Below are positions 1,934-19,815 of a stretch of DNA of 21,424 bases, in pieces. The stretch lies in IMG/VR virus record IMGVR_UViG_3300028829_002777, positions 1 to 21,424 of that record. One strand, given 5' to 3'. The translations under genes and the position numbers were made by a program. This stretch comes from a virus. Under the pieces are notes generated by a model, which saw nothing but the letters and a program-made list of their open reading frames with translations, was not told where the DNA came from and ran no database searches. Each line of letters opens with the position of its first letter. Position 1 is the stretch's first letter.

Positions 1934-2693
1934 AAGATTTGCTACAGACCAAGAATCACACGCACATTCGTTGCAGTGTTTGACATACTTAGAACAATTT
2001 GGATCATTTATGGAATCTGTTGAAACTGTATTAGACATAGGGTGTAACACAGGCATGGATGCACATTGGTGGGCCACACGTACCATGCTGGATGATAGTG
2101 ACAATAACATTCCGTTAAACATTCGTTGCACTGCCATAGATATTCAGAACAAATTTGATCGTAAACACAAACATGTGAACATTGAATTCAAAGAAATGGA
2201 CTTTGAAAAACTTAAATTTAAAAATAATTCATTTGATGTGATATGGGCACATGATGTATTACAGTATGCAATCAATCCATTAAGGACTATACGTGAATGG
2301 TGCAAGATAGCCAGAGACAATGCCATGTTATGTATAGCAGTACCTGAAACCACAGATCTTGTACACAATAGAATACAAGCAGATCAATATCATAATGAAT
2401 ATTATCATTACACCTTGGTTAATCTAATACACATGCTGTCTGTGAACGGATGGGATTGTAATGATGCATCATTCTATAAACGCAGAGGAGATCCTTGGTT
2501 ATGGGCAGTGGTGTACAAAGCACCTAAATTTAAAAAATTAGATCATAGAACAGCCACTTGGTTTGACATAGCAGAGCAAAATTTGTTGCCAAAATCTGTG
2601 ATTGATTCTATGAATAACTATGGGTACGTGAGATTCCAAGATCTCAAACTGATGTGGTTAGATAAAAATTGGCAGGACTTTAGTCACTACTAA
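1926..2693 (+). CDS. class I SAM-dependent methyltransferase
   Basis: A 255-aa Rossmann-fold methyltransferase. Motif I is VLDIGCNTG (35-43), an acidic residue at the end of strand beta-2 is D72 in AIDI, and the motif IV region is FDVIWAHDVLQY (103-114). The layout resembles the Methyltransf_11/UbiE-like group that acts on small molecules or sugars rather than a DNA methyltransferase; there is no DPPY or NPPF motif. The GTG start at 1926 is supported by GGAAGA at 1915-1920 with 5 nt spacing, and it overlaps the UvsY-like gene by 8 nt. It sits directly before a glycosyltransferase block, so methylation of a glycan is a reasonable guess. The C-terminal 80 or so residues, rich in Trp and Tyr, do not belong to the core fold. 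Confidence 0.75.
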   Translation: MYKRFATDQESHAHSLQCLTYLEQFGSFMESVETVLDIGCNTGMDAHWWATRTMLDDSDNNIPLNIRCTAIDIQNKFDRKHKHVNIEFKEMDFEKLKFKNNSFDVIWAHDVLQYAINPLRTIREWCKIARDNAMLCIAVPETTDLVHNRIQADQYHNEYYHYTLVNLIHMLSVNGWDCNDASFYKRRGDPWLWAVVYKAPKFKKLDHRTATWFDIAEQNLLPKSVIDSMNNYGYVRFQDLKLMWLDKNWQDFSHY

Positions 2694-2696
2694 ATA
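2690..2696 (+). promoter_or_regulatory. candidate late-type promoter (CTAAATA)
   Basis: CTAAATA overlaps the methyltransferase stop codon and ends 5 nt before the ATG at 2702. It resembles the T4 late -10 consensus TATAAATA but lacks the first bases. The spacing to the ATG is identical to that at 17365-17372, and no ribosome site lies between. Supported only by that parallel. Confidence 0.3.
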
Positions 2697-2701
2697 CCTA
2701 C

Positions 2702-4438
2702 ATGGGTATTCAACAAGTCATAGACGTATTCATTGGATACGATTCCAGAGAAGATATAGCCGCACAAGTTTGCAAGTACTCTTTGCAAAAACATGCTTCT
2801 ATACCAGTGCGAGTGCATATGCTACGTCTACAACATTTAGAAGACGAAGGCATACTGTGGCGTGAACGTGAAAAGAATGCCTCCACTCAATTTACATATT
2901 CAAGATTTTTAGTTCCTTCGTTAATGAACTTTCAGGGGTGGGCCGTATTTTGTGATTGTGATTTTTTATGGACTGGAGATATTGCAGATTTGTTGGCATT
3001 GCGTGATCGTACCAAAGGTGTGTTTGTAGTACCACATGAACGTTATGGATACAAACCCAAAACTAATACAAAGATGGATGGCAAAGCACAAACTTTTTAT
3101 CCTAAGAAAAATTGGTCATCATTGATGATGTTTAATTGCTCACACCCCAGAGTAAGAACCAATTTAACTAGAAAACATGTCAATCAAGAATCCATGCAGT
3201 ATCTACATAGACTTAATTGGCTTAGAGATGATGATGTAGGATTTCTTACACCCGAGTGGAACTGGTTGTCTGGATACTACGACGAAATAGACATGAAACC
3301 CAAAGCCATACATTACACAGATGGTGGTCCTTGGTTTGACGACAAAGACATACCCAAAGAAATGGGCATTGAATCTTGGCGTGATGTAGACTACGGCGAT
3401 CTATGGATTGAGTATAGAAAAAATTATCAACAAGCAGACAAAGATCAAAAACGTGAAATTAGAAATGTTGAACTGGGATCTTTGACATATTCAGATACAT
3501 GGAACAAACATTACACTGATTTACAAAATGTACTGTTGGATCCATATAATGTATACAATGTAGGATCAAATATCAATAAGTTGATAAAAAGAATCAAAGA
3601 TCATCAAAAGAACGCAACAGTAATAGGAGTATCAGATATGACAGAACTCACAGAGTCAATGAAAAAGAAAGGATTCAAATGGGATAGGTTAGTAGATGCA
3701 TTCGTCAAAGGTGCCAATGGTATTATATGCGACTGGGAAACTGTATTGAAAAATACCAAAGATACTAGACCTATTGCATTCAGAGGCATATCCAAAAGAC
3801 ACATACATGAATATTGTGTGGACAACAAAAGAGATTATTACTTTGTGGACACAGGATACTTTGGCAATCAAGGTAAGAATAAACTATGGCACAGGATCAC
3901 ACTAAACGATCTACAATACTGTGGTAAGTTACGCAGTGTGTCATCAGACAGATTTGACAAAGCATTTGGGTATACCAATAGATTTAAAACAGGTTCTAAA
4001 ATATTGTTGTGCCCACCTTCAGACAAAGCCATGAAGTTTTACAAAGAAGATTTAGACACATGGATGAAAAAAACATTGAGTGAAATTGCTGAACACACAG
4101 ACAGAGAAGTTGTGGTGAGATTAAAAGCACCCAGAAAGCAAAGAGTGTATGTGAATACCATACAAGAAGCACTGAACGATGATATACATTGTTTGGTCAC
4201 ATACAATTCTATTGCGGCAGTTGAAGCATTAATGGAAGGCGTACCTGCTATTGTGTTAGGACAAAATGCGGCTTCGTCATTGTGCTCAAACACATTGGAC
4301 AAAATTGAGCATCCAAAAAAACCTTCTGAAGACGAAGTGTATTATTTGTTATGTAATCTTGCATACTGTATGTACACACAACACGAAATATTAGACGGCA
4401 GAGCATGGCGTATGTTAGAGGAGTGGTATGCACAGTGA
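2702..4438 (+). CDS. two-domain glycosyltransferase (GT8-like GT-A + GT-B-like)
   Basis: A 578-aa fusion. Residues 6-240 look like a GT-A enzyme of the GT8 type. They show VIDVFIGYDSRE near the N-terminus, the metal-binding DCD (85-87) in FCDCDFLW, and a late HYTDGGPW (204-211) that fits the GT8 metal/acceptor histidine. Residues from about 290 form a second domain that ends with VTYNS (499-503), ALMEGVP and GRAWRML. This C-terminal pattern recurs in the genes at 4435 and 6212, so it is a paralogous GT-B-like or capsule-synthesis-like domain. The usual conserved Arg-x-His-Pro of that family reads VRLKAP here, so this copy may have altered activity. The gene probably adds sugars to a phage- or host-surface glycan, but DNA is not excluded. 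No ribosome site is visible; see the adjacent late-type box. Confidence 0.7.
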   Translation: MGIQQVIDVFIGYDSREDIAAQVCKYSLQKHASIPVRVHMLRLQHLEDEGILWREREKNASTQFTYSRFLVPSLMNFQGWAVFCDCDFLWTGDIADLLALRDRTKGVFVVPHERYGYKPKTNTKMDGKAQTFYPKKNWSSLMMFNCSHPRVRTNLTRKHVNQESMQYLHRLNWLRDDDVGFLTPEWNWLSGYYDEIDMKPKAIHYTDGGPWFDDKDIPKEMGIESWRDVDYGDLWIEYRKNYQQADKDQKREIRNVELGSLTYSDTWNKHYTDLQNVLLDPYNVYNVGSNINKLIKRIKDHQKNATVIGVSDMTELTESMKKKGFKWDRLVDAFVKGANGIICDWETVLKNTKDTRPIAFRGISKRHIHEYCVDNKRDYYFVDTGYFGNQGKNKLWHRITLNDLQYCGKLRSVSSDRFDKAFGYTNRFKTGSKILLCPPSDKAMKFYKEDLDTWMKKTLSEIAEHTDREVVVRLKAPRKQRVYVNTIQEALNDDIHCLVTYNSIAAVEALMEGVPAIVLGQNAASSLCSNTLDKIEHPKKPSEDEVYYLLCNLAYCMYTQHEILDGRAWRMLEEWYAQ

Positions 4439-8585: not shown

Positions 8586-8603
8586 GTTGCAAAAATACAA
8601 CAC
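8586..8603 (+). repeat. 18-bp repeat, copy 1 (GTTGCAAAAATACAAC core)
   Basis: GTTGCAAAAATACAACAC is repeated exactly at 9363-9380. It contains a short inverted repeat GTTG...CAAC around an A-rich centre. It lies 44 nt before the -35 box of the next promoter. It could be an operator or an RNA element. The role is unknown. Confidence 0.85.
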
Positions 8604-8647: not shown

Positions 8648-8676
8648 TTGACCTATGGATGCAATACCTATATACT
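8648..8676 (+). promoter_or_regulatory. sigma70-type early promoter, cassette A
   Basis: TTGACC (8648-8653) and TATACT (8671-8676) are separated by exactly 17 nt. The predicted +1 is 8683, which is the A of ATGTTAAGC, an ATG in frame with the start of the next gene at 8713. The whole promoter-leader block is nearly duplicated at 9406-9480. It is placed directly after a strong terminator, as expected for a new early unit. Confidence 0.8.
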
Positions 8677-8712
8677 CATAGTATGTTAAGCAATAAAAAT
8701 AAAGGAGCAAAC

Positions 8713-8973
8713 ATGCAAAACAAAATTGATTTCATTTCAGCATACAACGGTAAGTTAGAACTACACGCAAAGTCACAAGTAGTTGTTAAATCATCAGACA
8801 TTAAAACATTGATACAAACAGTATTAAAGCACAAGTTGGCTCATACTGTATTAAAGTCTTCATCTATAGACTTTGCCAGTGAGTATGGTTTTAACACTAA
8901 TAGAGATGCTATGGATATGTGGTTAGACATAGTAAGAGAGTATAATGCAATTGAAAACAAAGTGTTTGGGTAA
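8713..8973 (+). CDS. small early protein, function unknown
   Basis: 86 aa from ATG 8713, chosen because AAAGGAG at 8701-8707 lies 5 nt upstream. An in-frame ATG at 8683 coincides with the predicted transcription start and would add ten residues (MLSNKNKGAN). The protein begins MQNKIDFISAYNGKLE and looks mixed, with strands first, then two helices (about 32-50 and 65-82). There are no cysteines, signal peptide or membrane segment. It is the first gene behind a strong host-type promoter, so it is probably expressed immediately after infection. I do not recognise a family. Confidence 0.75.
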   Translation: MQNKIDFISAYNGKLELHAKSQVVVKSSDIKTLIQTVLKHKLAHTVLKSSSIDFASEYGFNTNRDAMDMWLDIVREYNAIENKVFG

Positions 8974-9000
8974 TTCAATAAAATAATAATAGGAGTGATT

Positions 9001-9363
9001 ATGATAAAAGATATTAAAGTAAATTCAGAAAAGATGTTACAAGCAATATTTGATAAAGCACATTATGAGGCTGAAAAAGCAATGGACTATGCTTTAAAAA
9101 AGTGGAGAATAGAAAATCCTGATAATGTAGGTGGTGGATATCACGAGCCAATGTATTGTGGATTTGCCTGGGTAAACATTGAAGTAAATGGTGCTACTAA
9201 ATTAGGTAGATTAATGAAGAAGATGGGTATTGATCGAAGAGTTGGTAATCCAGGTGGATACAGAGGTCAAAGCATGGATATCAGAGAAGTTGGTGCAGAA
9301 AAATTTGTAGAAGTTATGAGAGCAAACAACTTTCATGCACATGCATATAGCAGAGCAGACTAG
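9001..9363 (+). CDS. small early protein, function unknown
   Basis: 120 aa from ATG 9001, set by AGGAG at 8991-8995 with 5 nt spacing, 27 nt after the previous stop and in the same transcription unit. The N-terminal 40 residues are a charged helix (KMLQAIFDKAHYEAEKAMDY). The rest contains glycine-rich turns (NVGGGYHEP, GNPGGYRGQS) and the segment CGFAWVNIEV followed by LGRLMKKMG. I associate this with small conserved proteins of marine phages but cannot name a function. Two glycine-rich loops flanking a strand are compatible with a nucleic-acid-binding fold. The stop codon touches the second copy of the 18-bp repeat. Confidence 0.75.
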   Translation: MIKDIKVNSEKMLQAIFDKAHYEAEKAMDYALKKWRIENPDNVGGGYHEPMYCGFAWVNIEVNGATKLGRLMKKMGIDRRVGNPGGYRGQSMDIREVGAEKFVEVMRANNFHAHAYSRAD

Positions 9364-9380
9364 TTGCAAAAATACAACAC
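9363..9380 (+). repeat. 18-bp repeat, copy 2
   Basis: Exact copy of 8586-8603, starting on the last base of the stop codon of the 9001 gene and lying 25 nt before the -35 box of promoter cassette B. Both copies therefore occupy the gap between the preceding gene or terminator and a TTGACC promoter. Confidence 0.85.
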
Positions 9381-9405
9381 CCCTAAAAATAATTTATTTT
9401 AGGGG
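9380..9405 (+). other. 9-bp hairpin directly upstream of a -35 box
   Basis: CCCCTAAAA (9380-9388) pairs with TTTTAGGGG (9397-9405) around an 8-nt AT loop. The right arm abuts TTGACC. There is no T run after the stem, so a classic terminator is unlikely in this direction. It may be an operator or an RNA 3'-end stabiliser for the upstream gene. Confidence 0.5.
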
Positions 9406-9434
9406 TTGACCATTAGACTGTACTACTATATAAT
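9406..9434 (+). promoter_or_regulatory. sigma70-type early promoter, cassette B
   Basis: TTGACC (9406-9411), 17 nt, then consensus TATAAT (9429-9434). The predicted +1 at 9441 is again the A of an ATG (ATGTTAGGC) in frame with the gene start at 9480. It shares TTGACC, the 17-nt spacing and the segment CATA(G/T)TATGTTA(A/G)GCAATAA with cassette A. Confidence 0.85.
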
Positions 9435-9479
9435 CATATTATGTTAGGCAATAAGTTAGGAAACAAAAAAGGAGCGATT

Positions 9480-10307
9480 ATGCAAAACACACAAAAAACA
9501 ATAAAATTTCAAAAAGAAACTGATGATCAAGTCATAGAAAGAATCTCAAAAAGATTTAAGATTTTAGACGACATGACTAATGCTACAATCAGAGGCGATA
9601 TCAAAGCCATGATAGTAGTTGGCCCTCCAGGTGTTGGTAAGTCATATGGCGTAGAAACACAATTAGAAAAAGCATCATTGATGCATGATTTGTCAGGTCA
9701 TAGAAGACCATACGAAGTAGTCAAGGGTGCAATGAGTGCCATTGGTTTATACTGTAAGTTACATGAGTATAAGAAGTCTGATAACGTATTGGTATTTGAT
9801 GATTGTGATTCAGTGTTACAAGACGAATTATCACTGAACATACTAAAGGCCGCATTGGATTCTAAGAAAGATAGAAGAATTTGTTGGAACACTGATTCGT
9901 ACAAGTTAAGAAACGAAGGTGTGCCTGATTCATTTACTTTCAGGGGATCTGCAATTTTCATAACTAATATTAACTTTGAAAATGTAAAGTCTAAGAAGTT
10001 ACAAGATCATTTAAGTGCAGTGCATTCAAGATGCCATTACTTAGATCTAACATTAGACACTGCAAGAGATAAGTTATTGAGAATTAAACAGATTGCAGGC
10101 ACAGGTGCTCTTTATCAGGATTATGACTTTTCCAAAGAGCAAGTTCAAGAACAACTAGACTATCTTGAGTCCAACAAAGATAGACTAAACGAGTTAAGCC
10201 TGAGGATGGCACTGAAGATCGCAGATCTAAGAAAAGTGTCAAACACAGGTTGGAAGGAATTGGCGGACGTCACTTGTATGAGAAGACGTGTCAATACTGC
10301 CGGATAG
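9480..10307 (+). CDS. AAA+ ATPase
   Basis: 275 aa from ATG 9480, chosen for AAGGAG at 9469-9474 with 5 nt spacing. An in-frame ATG at 9441 lies at the predicted transcription start. Walker A is GPPGVGKS (48-55), Walker B is VLVFDDCD (103-110), a sensor-1-like ITN sits at 161-163, and a possible arginine finger is in HSRC (R184). The fold is a single AAA+ module with a short helical lid, comparable to the MoxR/CbbQ or clamp-loader-like groups. No nuclease, protease or helicase domain is attached. Strong early promoter placement suggests a role in early takeover or replication set-up. I cannot name the substrate. Homologues are, from memory, common and unnamed in marine phages. Confidence 0.8.
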   Translation: MQNTQKTIKFQKETDDQVIERISKRFKILDDMTNATIRGDIKAMIVVGPPGVGKSYGVETQLEKASLMHDLSGHRRPYEVVKGAMSAIGLYCKLHEYKKSDNVLVFDDCDSVLQDELSLNILKAALDSKKDRRICWNTDSYKLRNEGVPDSFTFRGSAIFITNINFENVKSKKLQDHLSAVHSRCHYLDLTLDTARDKLLRIKQIAGTGALYQDYDFSKEQVQEQLDYLESNKDRLNELSLRMALKIADLRKVSNTGWKELADVTCMRRRVNTAG

Positions 10308-10338
10308 TTTTCGCTCCTAACATTTTCTATTCGGTTAG

Positions 10339-10376
10339 AAAAGGTATACTTTCACTCCAATTTTAGTATACCTTTT
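10339..10376 (+). terminator. inverted repeat, probable terminator
   Basis: AAAAGGTATACT (10339-10350) pairs perfectly over 12 bp with AGTATACCTTTT (10365-10376) around a 14-nt loop. The trailing four T bases are within the stem and only a short pyrimidine stretch follows, so termination may be weak. The repeat lies between the ATPase stop and the uvsW promoter. It could also be an operator. Confidence 0.55.
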
Positions 10377-10386
10377 CACTACGACA

Positions 10387-10395
10387 TGCTATAAT
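10387..10395 (+). promoter_or_regulatory. extended -10 promoter for uvsW
   Basis: TGCTATAAT is a perfect extended -10 (TGnTATAAT), and no good -35 box lies 17 nt upstream, as is common for such promoters. The predicted +1 is 10402, the A of the uvsW ATG. No ribosome site exists between the box and the ATG, which agrees with a leaderless transcript. Confidence 0.65.
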
Positions 10396-10401
10396 TAAAC
10401 A

Positions 10402-11853
10402 ATGAAACAATGTAATATCATAGTCAAAGACGAAGTAAACATCAAGATAGACGGTCTTGATCTGGACACCCGTAAGACTTTGACCAACATGTTCAAATAT
10501 GAAGTGCCAGGTGCTAGGTATATGCCAGCAGTGAGATTGGGCAGATGGGATGGCAAAGTGGGATTCTTTCAATTGGGAGGATCATCATATGTGAATTTGT
10601 TATCAGAAATTATTCCTGTGTTAGAAAAAGATCATTATGACATTGATGTCACAGACACAAGAACGTACTCAACCACATATGCATTTGAATCAGTCAACGA
10701 ACAATCATATGCTCATTATCAATGGCCACCCAAACATCCTTCAGCAGGCGAACCTATTGTGTTGAGAGATTATCAAGTGGAAGTGATCAACAAGTTTATG
10801 GAAAATCCACAATGCATACAAGAAGTGGCCACAGGTGCAGGTAAAACTTTGATCACGGCAGTGTTATCACATAGATGTGAAGCACATGGTCGTACCATTG
10901 TGATTGTGCCCAACAAATCATTGGTCACACAAACAGAAGCAGACTACATCAACATGGGATTAGATGTAGGTGTGTTCTTTGGTGATCGCAAAGAGTTTGG
11001 CAAAACACACACCATATGCACATGGCAATCATTGAACGTGCTAATGAAACGTACCAGAGCCAAAGACATTGATATCACCATAGATGAGTTTTTACATGAT
11101 GTGGTATGTGTGATGGTAGATGAAGTACACATGGCCAAAGCAGATGCACTCAGAACATTGCTCACAGGACCCATGAGTCACATACCCATACGTTGGGGAC
11201 TCACAGGCACAGTGCCTAAGGAACAATACGAGTTTATGAGTTTACGTTGTTCGTTAGGAGATGTCATAGGCAGACTGTCAGCATCTGAACTACAACAAGA
11301 AGGTGTGTTAGCAAACTGTCATGTCAACGTGGTGCAATTACAGGACCACAAAGAATATAGATCATATCAAGACGAACTCAGGTATTTGTTGGCCACAGAA
11401 GACCGTATGTCATACATTGCCAAACTCATAGATTCAATCAAAGATTCCGGCAACACATTGATTCTAGTAGATCGTATTGCGGCCGGACAATTAATAAATA
11501 GCAAGATAAAAGGATCCACCTTTATTTCGGGAGGTACGAAAAATGTTGATCGTAAAGAAAATTATGAACGTGTTAGTGACGGGGATGGACTGGTGCTTAT
11601 TGCGACCTATGGTGTTGCTAGTGTTGGTATCAATATTCCTCGTGTGTTTAATCTTGTCCTTATTGAACCCGGCAAATCATTTGTTAGGGTTATACAAAGT
11701 ATTGGCAGGGGCATACGGAAGGCTCAAGACAAAGATTTTGTTCAAATCTGGGATATAACATCCACTTGTAAGTTTGCCAAAAGGCATTTAACTAAACGCA
11801 AGGCTTTTTATAGAGAAGCCAATTATCCGTTCACAACAGAATGGCAGGAATAA
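10402..11853 (+). CDS. uvsW: UvsW helicase
   Basis: 483 aa, close to T4 UvsW in length and layout. The N-terminal 95 residues form the small UvsW-specific domain (VRLGRWDGKVGFFQ, 44-57). SF2 helicase motifs follow: LRDYQ (121-125), Walker A ATGAGKT (143-149), DEVH (240-243), LTGT (267-270) and motif VI QSIGRGIRK (432-440). UvsW is an ATP-driven branch-migration and annealing helicase that resolves R-loops and replication forks, shifting T4 from origin to recombination-dependent replication. In T4 it is made late; here it sits behind an extended -10 promoter instead. From about 11470 the codon choice changes (more GTT, CTT, GCG) and stays so to the end of the gene. The 3' end overlaps the next ATG by 13 nt. 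Confidence 0.95.
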   Translation: MKQCNIIVKDEVNIKIDGLDLDTRKTLTNMFKYEVPGARYMPAVRLGRWDGKVGFFQLGGSSYVNLLSEIIPVLEKDHYDIDVTDTRTYSTTYAFESVNEQSYAHYQWPPKHPSAGEPIVLRDYQVEVINKFMENPQCIQEVATGAGKTLITAVLSHRCEAHGRTIVIVPNKSLVTQTEADYINMGLDVGVFFGDRKEFGKTHTICTWQSLNVLMKRTRAKDIDITIDEFLHDVVCVMVDEVHMAKADALRTLLTGPMSHIPIRWGLTGTVPKEQYEFMSLRCSLGDVIGRLSASELQQEGVLANCHVNVVQLQDHKEYRSYQDELRYLLATEDRMSYIAKLIDSIKDSGNTLILVDRIAAGQLINSKIKGSTFISGGTKNVDRKENYERVSDGDGLVLIATYGVASVGINIPRVFNLVLIEPGKSFVRVIQSIGRGIRKAQDKDFVQIWDITSTCKFAKRHLTKRKAFYREANYPFTTEWQE

Positions 11854-17364: not shown

Positions 17365-17372
17365 GATAAATA
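17365..17372 (+). promoter_or_regulatory. candidate late promoter (GATAAATA)
   Basis: GATAAATA differs from the T4 late -10 octamer TATAAATA at one base. It ends 5 nt before the ATG at 17378, so the predicted +1 falls on the ATG itself. No ribosome site lies between. It is placed in the divergent gap in front of a virion-type gene, as expected for a late promoter. Confidence 0.6.
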
Positions 17373-17377
17373 TTGCT

Positions 17378-18133
17378 ATGTATAACACGCAAGTATATTT
17401 ATATGACCAAGAGCAAACCATAATATTAAATGATTATGCAAACTCAGAACTTATTTCAGTGAGGTGGACGCCAGTGTACGCAAAGGACTTAAAACTACAT
17501 AAAGGTACAGATAATGTGCTGACCTTTAGATTTCAAAATCAGGATCAAAAGCCTGTAAACTTAACAGATACCACAGTGACGTTTAGACTGATCAGTCAAG
17601 ATGGTACAGAAGTATTGTTGTCAGAAAACTTAGAAACAATATCAGCAGTCAAAGGCACTGCCAAAGTTACCATATCAGAATCAGAACTTGATGCAGTCAG
17701 CATACAAAAAGCCACATACTCATTGGAAAGAAAACTCACTACACGTTCCACATACGATCCTGCGTTCATGGACGATAATGCCACTGCAAGAGGATCTGTA
17801 GAAATTATGGATTCAGTGATGGCTACTCATACTGCATCACAAACAATTACAATTCCTGCACATGGTGACGATACCACATATTATTCCTCACAATGGTCAG
17901 GCAATGATGTAAACTTGCACACACTACAATACAAACCTTCTGCATTCACAGGTTCCATACAAGTACAAGGTGCAGTAGATTCCACAGAAGGATTATGGTA
18001 CGACATTGGATCCAAGACAAATATTACAGCCTCTTCTGTGACAGGATACATAAACATAGATGGATTTCATCCTTATTTAAGAGTTGAGATCATAGAAACA
18101 TCTGGATCAATTAGTTCACTAGCAGTAAGGTAA
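17378..18133 (+). CDS. probable virion structural protein, beta-sandwich
   Basis: 251 aa from ATG 17378; a TTG at 17348 is in frame but precedes the promoter. The first 110 residues (RWTPVYAKDLKLHKGTDN, then TFRFQNQDQKPVNLTDTTVT) read like the BppU/baseplate N-terminal-type immunoglobulin sandwich found in tail proteins. The remainder is Ser/Thr-rich strands with ITIPAHGDDTTYYSSQWSG and a C-terminal ITASSVTGYINIDGFHPYLR. No enzymatic motif is visible. A dedicated late-type promoter supports a structural role, probably tail or baseplate. Three nucleotides separate it from the SGNH hydrolase gene, so the two are likely co-expressed. Confidence 0.6.
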   Translation: MYNTQVYLYDQEQTIILNDYANSELISVRWTPVYAKDLKLHKGTDNVLTFRFQNQDQKPVNLTDTTVTFRLISQDGTEVLLSENLETISAVKGTAKVTISESELDAVSIQKATYSLERKLTTRSTYDPAFMDDNATARGSVEIMDSVMATHTASQTITIPAHGDDTTYYSSQWSGNDVNLHTLQYKPSAFTGSIQVQGAVDSTEGLWYDIGSKTNITASSVTGYINIDGFHPYLRVEIIETSGSISSLAVR

Positions 18134-18136
18134 TAC

Positions 18137-18844
18137 ATGAAATTAGCAGTATTCGGAGACTCCTGGACATGGGGCGACGAACTCATAGACCCCAAACACC
18201 CTGATTGGGAATGTTGTTACACACAAAATAATTCATACAGATTAAAACATTGTTTTTCAGGACAGATTGCCCAACACTACAACTGTGAATTAGAAAATTA
18301 TGGTCATCCAGGAGCATCATTGCAATCTATTATATGGACTTTTCTTTGGTGGTTGCGTCAAGACATTGATCACAAAGATTATGTGATATTGATTGGACTC
18401 ACTGCCGCTGATAGACAATCATGGTATAACCCTAATCATGTATCATACTCCAATGATCCTGTGTGGAACAAATATATACACAATGTTTGGGTAAACTTTG
18501 GTTCATCTATAGTGCCTGATGAATGGAGAGACATGGTCAAAGCATGGACAGTGTTATCACAATCTAACGAATTATCTGAATACAACTACGAATCAGCAGT
18601 GTATCTGTTTGATGGTGTTGCACATGCTCAACAATTACAATTGGCACAATACAATATATTTCAACCACCTAAAGTCATAGATGTTACAACCATGTGGTGG
18701 CCTAATGACAACTATAGATCCACATTATTACAACATCCTATGCGTGAAGACATACATGCCAAAGGCGATCATCCCAATGAAAATGGACATCAAATTATAT
18801 CAAAACAGTTGATTAAACAAATAGATTCCTGTATACTAACTTAA
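18137..18844 (+). CDS. SGNH/GDSL-family hydrolase
   Basis: 235 aa with block I GDSWTWGDEL (7-16, nucleophile S9), a block II glycine in YGHPGAS (55-61) and block V GDHPNENGH (210-218) bearing the catalytic Asp/His. The block III Asn is not obvious; IGLTAADRQSWYNP (86-99) stands at its place. Members are esterases or deacylases of lipids, polysaccharides or glycans. In phages they can trim host surface acetyl groups or decorate virions. AAGG at 18127-18130 precedes the ATG by 6 nt. It follows a virion-type gene under a late-type promoter, which suggests a virion-associated or lysis-stage enzyme. Its stop shares a base with the primase ATG. Confidence 0.75.
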   Translation: MKLAVFGDSWTWGDELIDPKHPDWECCYTQNNSYRLKHCFSGQIAQHYNCELENYGHPGASLQSIIWTFLWWLRQDIDHKDYVILIGLTAADRQSWYNPNHVSYSNDPVWNKYIHNVWVNFGSSIVPDEWRDMVKAWTVLSQSNELSEYNYESAVYLFDGVAHAQQLQLAQYNIFQPPKVIDVTTMWWPNDNYRSTLLQHPMREDIHAKGDHPNENGHQIISKQLIKQIDSCILT

Positions 18845-19815
18845 TGTTAGATATCACCACCGTTATTCCTGGCCGGAGAAAACGTACATCTTCAGGCTGG
18901 ATATCATTCAACGCAGTGTGTTGTGAACACAATGGAGAATCCAGAGATACGAGATCTCGTGGTGGTATTAAACAACAAGGGCATGATTGGTCTTATCATT
19001 GTTTCAATTGTGGATTCAAAGCATCATTCAAACTGGGTCGTACATTAGGATACAAAGCACGTAAATTGTTATCCTGGATGGGTGTAGATCAAAATGAAAT
19101 TGCAAGACTGAATTTAGAAAGTCTAAGACACAGAGACATACATTCAATCATAGAAGAACGTACTGCACCCAAAGTACACATTGATTTTAATGTGTTGAAC
19201 TTGCCTGACCAATGGCGTTTGATGGAAAACACAGATGAAGAGTACATTGCATATCTAACAGCCAGACACATCAAATGGCAATCCTATCCTTACATGATAG
19301 ATAAAGAAGAGTCTGGAAGAAAACGCATTGTGATTCCGTATACGTATGCTGGCAACATTGTGGGATGGTCTTCTAGATTTTTAGATGACAAAACTCCCAA
19401 GTACATCAATGAACATCAACAAGGTTATGCATTTGGATTAGATCTACAACAAGAACATTGGACACAATTAATAGTCACAGAAGGTGTGTTTGATGCACTG
19501 GCAATCAATGGTGTGGCAGTGTTGCACAACACCATATCAGACAATCAAGCATCTTTGATCAGACAACAACCCAAACAAATCACAGTGGTGCCTGATCAAG
19601 ACGAGTCAGGAGTAAAGATGATAGACCGTGCTGTTGAGTTAGGGTGGGCAGTGAGCATACCTGAATGGCCAGCACATATCAAAGATGTTAATGATGCAGT
19701 CAAACATTATGGCAGACTGGGTACATTGATAACTATTATGGGCCACAGAGAAACTTCAAAAATTAAAATTGAATTGGCAAAGAGACGACTTGCAAAAAAA
19801 CTTAAGGAAAGTTAA
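18844..19815 (+). CDS. DNA primase, gp61-type (TOPRIM)
   Basis: 323 aa, near T4 gp61 in size. The N-terminal zinc site candidates are C27 and H29 paired with C53 and C56 (CFNC). The TOPRIM domain has the catalytic TEG (212-214) in IVTEGVFDALAINGVAVL and PDQDESG (250-256) with the metal-binding D251/D253. Primases of this kind synthesise short RNA primers for lagging-strand synthesis together with the gp41 helicase, which is encoded next. The lysine-rich C-terminal helix (KIELAKRRLAKKLKES) fits contact with DNA or helicase. The ATG overlaps the SGNH stop (TAATG), so it may be translated from the late unit as well as from its own message. The gap to gp41 is 8 nt. Confidence 0.9.
   Translation: MLDITTVIPGRRKRTSSGWISFNAVCCEHNGESRDTRSRGGIKQQGHDWSYHCFNCGFKASFKLGRTLGYKARKLLSWMGVDQNEIARLNLESLRHRDIHSIIEERTAPKVHIDFNVLNLPDQWRLMENTDEEYIAYLTARHIKWQSYPYMIDKEESGRKRIVIPYTYAGNIVGWSSRFLDDKTPKYINEHQQGYAFGLDLQQEHWTQLIVTEGVFDALAINGVAVLHNTISDNQASLIRQQPKQITVVPDQDESGVKMIDRAVELGWAVSIPEWPAHIKDVNDAVKHYGRLGTLITIMGHRETSKIKIELAKRRLAKKLKES

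Follow-up and report, generated by a model that had tools for sequence, protein, structure and literature searches.

Bacteria have leaderless genes, and so does phage lambda with cI, so the kind of gene organization considered here is already familiar. In bacteria, as described for TA-led genes (PMC3160421) and for Caulobacter (PMC4117421), a -10-like box lies just 5' of the start codon and the mRNA has no leader; in Caulobacter, this class comprises about 10% of the genes (PMC4117421). The cI transcript of lambda is a phage mRNA that is translated from a 5'-terminal AUG (PMC3160421, PMC9031893), and AUG is the codon preferred for leaderless initiation in E. coli (PMC9031893). A second point of reference is provided by the late promoters of T4 (gp55/gp33/gp45), which have a TAAATA core and no -35 element and precede packaging and structural genes (PMC2988020, PMC1524935). 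The T4 late box occupies positions -13 to -6 (PMC1524935; PMC2988020) and lies well upstream of the gene, which leaves room for a Shine-Dalgarno (SD) site.

The DNA analyzed here, referred to as the window, is a stretch of 21,424 nucleotides (positions 1 to 21,424 of IMG/VR record IMGVR_UViG_3300028829_002777) and represents part of the genome of an uncultivated phage of the T4 type. The same phage is present, at 99.8-100% identity, in the 51-kb contig IMGVR_UViG_3300028844_002676, and a megablast search of the window against phages gave no matches. The closest cultured relatives found for its uvsW gene, at 47-52% identity, are the jumbo phages Phosso (of Sinorhizobium), Atu_ph07 (of Agrobacterium), and PA5oct (of Pseudomonas). 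The lineage was surveyed in 14 related contigs (1.33 Mb) of large T4-type phages from a little-known group, with genes called by a simple ORF method; three of these contigs (G003, G010, and G012) are mutually close, so that contig counts are only partly independent. Like the bacterial leaderless genes, many genes of this lineage carry a promoter box just 5' of the start codon, but here they belong to phages and fall into two promoter classes, one of which is phage-specific. Like T4, the lineage has TAAATA boxes without a -35 element before packaging and structural genes, but a second class of these boxes is located only 4-8 nt from the ATG. Very probably, the lineage sets many of its promoters on the ATG and would thus make leaderless mRNAs; according to this reading, the uvsW promoter of the window (P3) is a genuine case, while two further promoters (P1 and P2) are duplicates that drive SD-led genes and have an incidental ATG at their +1.

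The uvsW-like helicase gene (10402..11853, + strand) is preceded by P3, the TG-extended -10 element TGCTATAAT (10387..10395, + strand), in which TATAAT (10390-10395) is followed after 6 nt by the ATG, with a predicted +1 at 10402; in the window, P3 has no good -35 element. The promoter abuts a terminator-like hairpin located between the ATPase gene and uvsW (10338..10377, + strand; fold -18.4 kcal/mol, z -5.4), and visually similar hairpins are found in several relatives. An in-frame TAA at 10396-10398 makes 10402 the earliest possible start of uvsW, and homology of the protein starts from residue 1. The +1 was placed by the rules of E. coli and T4, which may not be those of the host or its sigma factor; by these rules the 6-nt discriminator is normal, and the +1 is thus predicted to be the A of the ATG at P1, P2, and P3. 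The uvsW mRNA would therefore begin with AUG, without an SD site.

Conservation of this arrangement was analyzed in 53 non-redundant uvsW representatives with upstream DNA, including the window. An exact TATAAT lies 6-8 nt before the ATG in 12 of them, compared with 0.25 on average and at most 3 in shuffled upstream sequences, and a near match or better is found at this distance in 16 of the 53, none of which has an SD site (0/16). All six rows of the window's clade on the uvsW tree (support 99/96) have the arrangement, which is missing from about 70% of the representatives in the search set. The initial annotation had read the lack of a ribosome site at uvsW as fitting leaderless translation, and the relatives agree with that reading, with the exact TATAAT spacing present throughout the window's clade. 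The AUG start without an SD site also corresponds to what is expected of a leaderless gene, although the box sits where the SD site would be, so that SD absence is partly forced by geometry and was dropped as independent proof. A leaderless uvsW is nevertheless strongly supported at the level of sequence comparison, since the box-to-ATG spacing that would place the +1 on the start codon is conserved in diverged relatives and coincides with a peak seen across the lineage at this distance.

Within the window alone, TATAATN5-8ATG occurs three times per strand, and reversed-pattern controls occur 0 and 1 times; the pattern is weak at this scale, and its non-randomness is supplied by the relatives. 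In a de novo test on the 14 contigs, every hexamer was counted by its distance to 2,445 candidate ATG starts. Besides SD hexamers, those with the strongest position specificity include TAAATA and TAAGTA, both at 5 nt, as well as TATAAT at 6 nt. Once duplicates were removed, TATAAT was found 23 times at 6 nt before ATG, versus 3.3 per position, and TAA[AG]TA 61 times at 5 nt, versus 5.3 per position. The box peak is a feature of ATG only and was not seen at the GTG or TTG starts of these contigs, and the boxes are 13-27 times rarer before ATGs inside genes. About 10% of the called genes in the 14 contigs fit the box-on-ATG pattern, including replication and packaging genes, a share similar to that of Caulobacter and in contrast to the single cI gene of lambda.

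A -35 element accompanies 24 of the 39 TATAAT boxes at 5-7 nt, versus 12.5% of all TATAAT, and a TGn motif accompanies 16 of the 39, versus 10.5%. In the late-box class, -35 elements are rare (4/99). The distances of TAAATA to the ATG are bimodal, with one group at 4-8 nt without SD and another at roughly 17-28 nt, mostly with SD; given the -13 to -6 span of the T4 late box, a 5-nt spacing is expected to make the A of the start codon the +1. TAA stop codons were considered as a source of the TAAATA peak and ruled out, because 38 of the 43 TAAATA boxes at exactly 5 nt do not overlap the upstream stop codon. Functions are divided largely as expected, with terminase and structural genes among the late-type cases and uvsW, primase, and DnaB among the sigma70-type ones, although the portal gene of one contig has a sigma70-type box and the split is thus imperfect. 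As a separate observation, the 314 sigma70-like sites of the 14 contigs show further ATG peaks at 2 nt (17), 30 nt (26), and 34 nt (20) past the -10 box, where about 6 are expected.

The mechanism proposed for this lineage would involve two promoter classes. RNA polymerase with a sigma70-type factor would recognize a TATAAT box with a -35 element or TG extension, located 6 nt before the ATG, and start the RNA at the A, for instance at uvsW and primase. A late gp55-like polymerase would similarly start at the A of an ATG placed 5 nt after TAAATA or TAAGTA, in genes for packaging (for example, terminase) and for the virion. The resulting 5'-terminal AUG would then be used by ribosomes directly, without a Shine-Dalgarno site.

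About four genes of the window are candidates for leaderless expression, with ATGs at 2702, 10402, 17378, and 18844. The DNA primase gene (18844..19815, + strand) is predicted to have a leaderless mRNA from the promoter TTGATT-17-TATACT (18809..18837, + strand), which is located within the end of the upstream gene, 6 nt before the ATG. Since a scan of viral contigs for primase yielded two loci only, this gene was tested on the related contigs, where 8 of the 9 primase relatives, 40-54% identical at the protein level, carry a -10 box 5-7 nt before the start. The other two candidates carry a T4-type late box, TAAATA, 5 nt before the ATG, and their leaderless mRNAs would be late ones, as presumed from the box. 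They are a virion-structural-like gene (17378..18133, + strand; box at 17367..17372, + strand) and a glycosyltransferase-8-like gene (2702..4438, + strand; box at 2691..2696, + strand). Both boxes have the TAAATA core and belong to the class without a -35 element, as late promoters do. For the virion-like gene, a box at 5-8 nt is also found in 5 of 9 related contigs. The case at 2691 is weaker, because the box spacing is not kept in distant homologues of the glycosyltransferase and the TAA of the box also terminates the preceding gene. Among 54 representatives of the terminase gene, 22 have a late box at 4-7 nt (exactly 5 nt in 16 of them), and the remainder of the 44 nt before the start holds a single box, compared with a mean of 0.41 and a maximum of 4 in shuffled sequences.

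The initial annotation had described three early promoters in which a -10 box is followed after 6 nt by an ATG, at 8683, 9441, and 10402. Direct reading of the sequence confirms these coordinates and the three promoter elements, but the description is imprecise, since two of the promoters are duplicates and early expression of uvsW is presumed. P1 and P2 are of the sigma70 type. P1 (TTGACC-17-TATACT; 8648..8676, + strand, with TTGACC at 8648-8653 and TATACT at 8671-8676; predicted +1 at 8683) precedes a 5' leader (8683..8712, + strand) and an SD-led orphan gene of 86 aa (8713..8973, + strand; AAGGAG at 8702-8707). P2 (TTGACC-17-TATAAT; 9406..9434, + strand, with TTGACC at 9406-9411 and TATAAT at 9429-9434; predicted +1 at 9441) precedes the leader (9441..9479, + strand) of an SD-led NrdC.10-like AAA ATPase gene (phrog_1250; 9480..10307, + strand; AAGGAG at 9469-9474). 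Both can be aligned as one cassette that runs from the 17-mer TTGCAAAAATACAACAC through promoter and leader to the start, ending in ATGCAAAACA, and they are therefore copies from one event rather than two independent cases. The 17-mer is identical at 8587-8603 and 9364-9380, 5' of P1 and P2, and lies beside a terminator-like hairpin. The argument that three hits at one spacing look non-random thus does not hold for the three cases as such, but it does hold through the uvsW and lineage tests in relatives.

It had also been proposed that P1 and P2 are leaderless starts as well, so that each gene would give an extended form from the +1 ATG (MLSNKNKGAN- and MLGNKLGNKKGAI-extended, respectively) and a shorter SD-led form. 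The +1 ATGs are indeed in frame with the SD-led ATGs at 8713 and 9480, with no stop codons between them, a 9-nt difference between the leaders preserves the frame, and +1 ATGs are in use within the lineage. However, both promoters belong to one duplicated cassette, and AAGGAG precedes both downstream starts, contrary to the SD-free start expected of a leaderless gene. In addition, the SD-led start is retained in the closest ATPase relatives (69-80% identity), most of which have a promoter of their own, but the +1 ATG is missing from all of them except L091, where it is out of frame; in L008-L010, the leader holds an in-frame stop. A comparison of spacing in related phages, suggested at the outset, thus gives a divided answer, with the uvsW box-to-ATG spacing kept and the in-frame +1 ATG of P2 not kept. 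For the 86-aa gene, no homologue was found except its own copy. Two N-terminal forms are therefore unlikely, and the proposal remains unsupported. Most likely, the +1 ATG at P1 and P2 is incidental, with duplicated promoters and ordinary SD-led genes, and chance is its likely account there. In L091, the +1 ATG upstream of the ATPase gene opens a short out-of-frame ORF that overlaps the ATPase start, a possible leader peptide.

Chance, helped by A/T-rich DNA and the selection bias of a pattern-seeking reader, could be put forward for the whole pattern given the small motif count in the window alone, but for uvsW and the lineage it is contradicted by the shuffle and control tests in relatives and is extremely improbable. 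A/T-rich sequence is common near the start codons of SD-less genes, and the boxes could accordingly belong to longer mRNAs, as leader sequence that enhances translation or has little structure, instead of being promoters. This is very unlikely, since specific hexamers occur at one exact distance, TATAAT is enriched in -35 elements, the same TAAATA box is also found at 17-28 nt together with SD sites, and equally A/T-rich phages show no peak. A narrower question is the class of the uvsW box: the uvsW of T4 belongs to the late genes, and a clear -35 element is absent in the window, which would suit a gp55-type late promoter. The relatives, however, carry TATAAT rather than TAAATA, several of them (L091, L136, and L158) with a TTGAC-type -35 at 17 nt, and the window has a TGn motif, so that a late promoter is improbable at this gene and a sigma70-type one is favored.

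Other T4-type phages were used as controls, and a comparable peak was not seen in T4, PA5oct, S-PM2, or the parts covered of KVP40, Atu_ph07, Phosso, and P-SSM2. The closest cultured relatives by uvsW thus differ from the window lineage in having no leaderless peak, and in Phosso and Atu_ph07 the primase gene has no box at this place. In the cultured Pelagibacter phage HTVC008M, TAAATA-5-ATG occurs 11 times versus 0.5 per position, a late-box peak as in the window lineage; unlike in that lineage, a clear sigma70-type peak is absent. The 11 HTVC008M boxes lying exactly 5 nt from the ATG (L313-L320) have in many cases the form TAAATAGTnnnATG, and the papers found do not describe this phage as having leaderless genes. 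Prediction of late promoters in pelagimyophages with the method used for cyanophages was unsuccessful (PMC7029224), and the close spacing of box and ATG is one possible reason. A uvsW scan of genome contigs for the host returned three metagenome-assembled contigs, likely misbinned phage and uninformative about the host. L345 and L347 (335 and 153 kb), which carry a uvsW of the phage type, come from a metagenome bin of Neomarinimicrobiota and are likely misbinned jumbo phage.

No report of leaderless T4-type genes was found in the part of the literature searched, and, to that extent, the systematic leaderless use of both promoter classes by a T4-type lineage seems to be new. T4-type late promoters are familiar from genes that have a leader and an SD site, while a common environmental group seems to set them directly on the start codons of key genes. 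Promoters of this kind could escape searches that presuppose a leader, and the arrangement offers a precise criterion for annotating start sites in these phages and is relevant to translation initiation in infected cells. It is reasonably likely that an entire clade within the T4-type phages runs a two-class leaderless program, in which promoters of the sigma70 type and late promoters of the gp55 type are both tied to the AUG. If so, infected cells would support leaderless initiation at scale, and the choice of +1 by the late polymerase would be under direct coding constraint.
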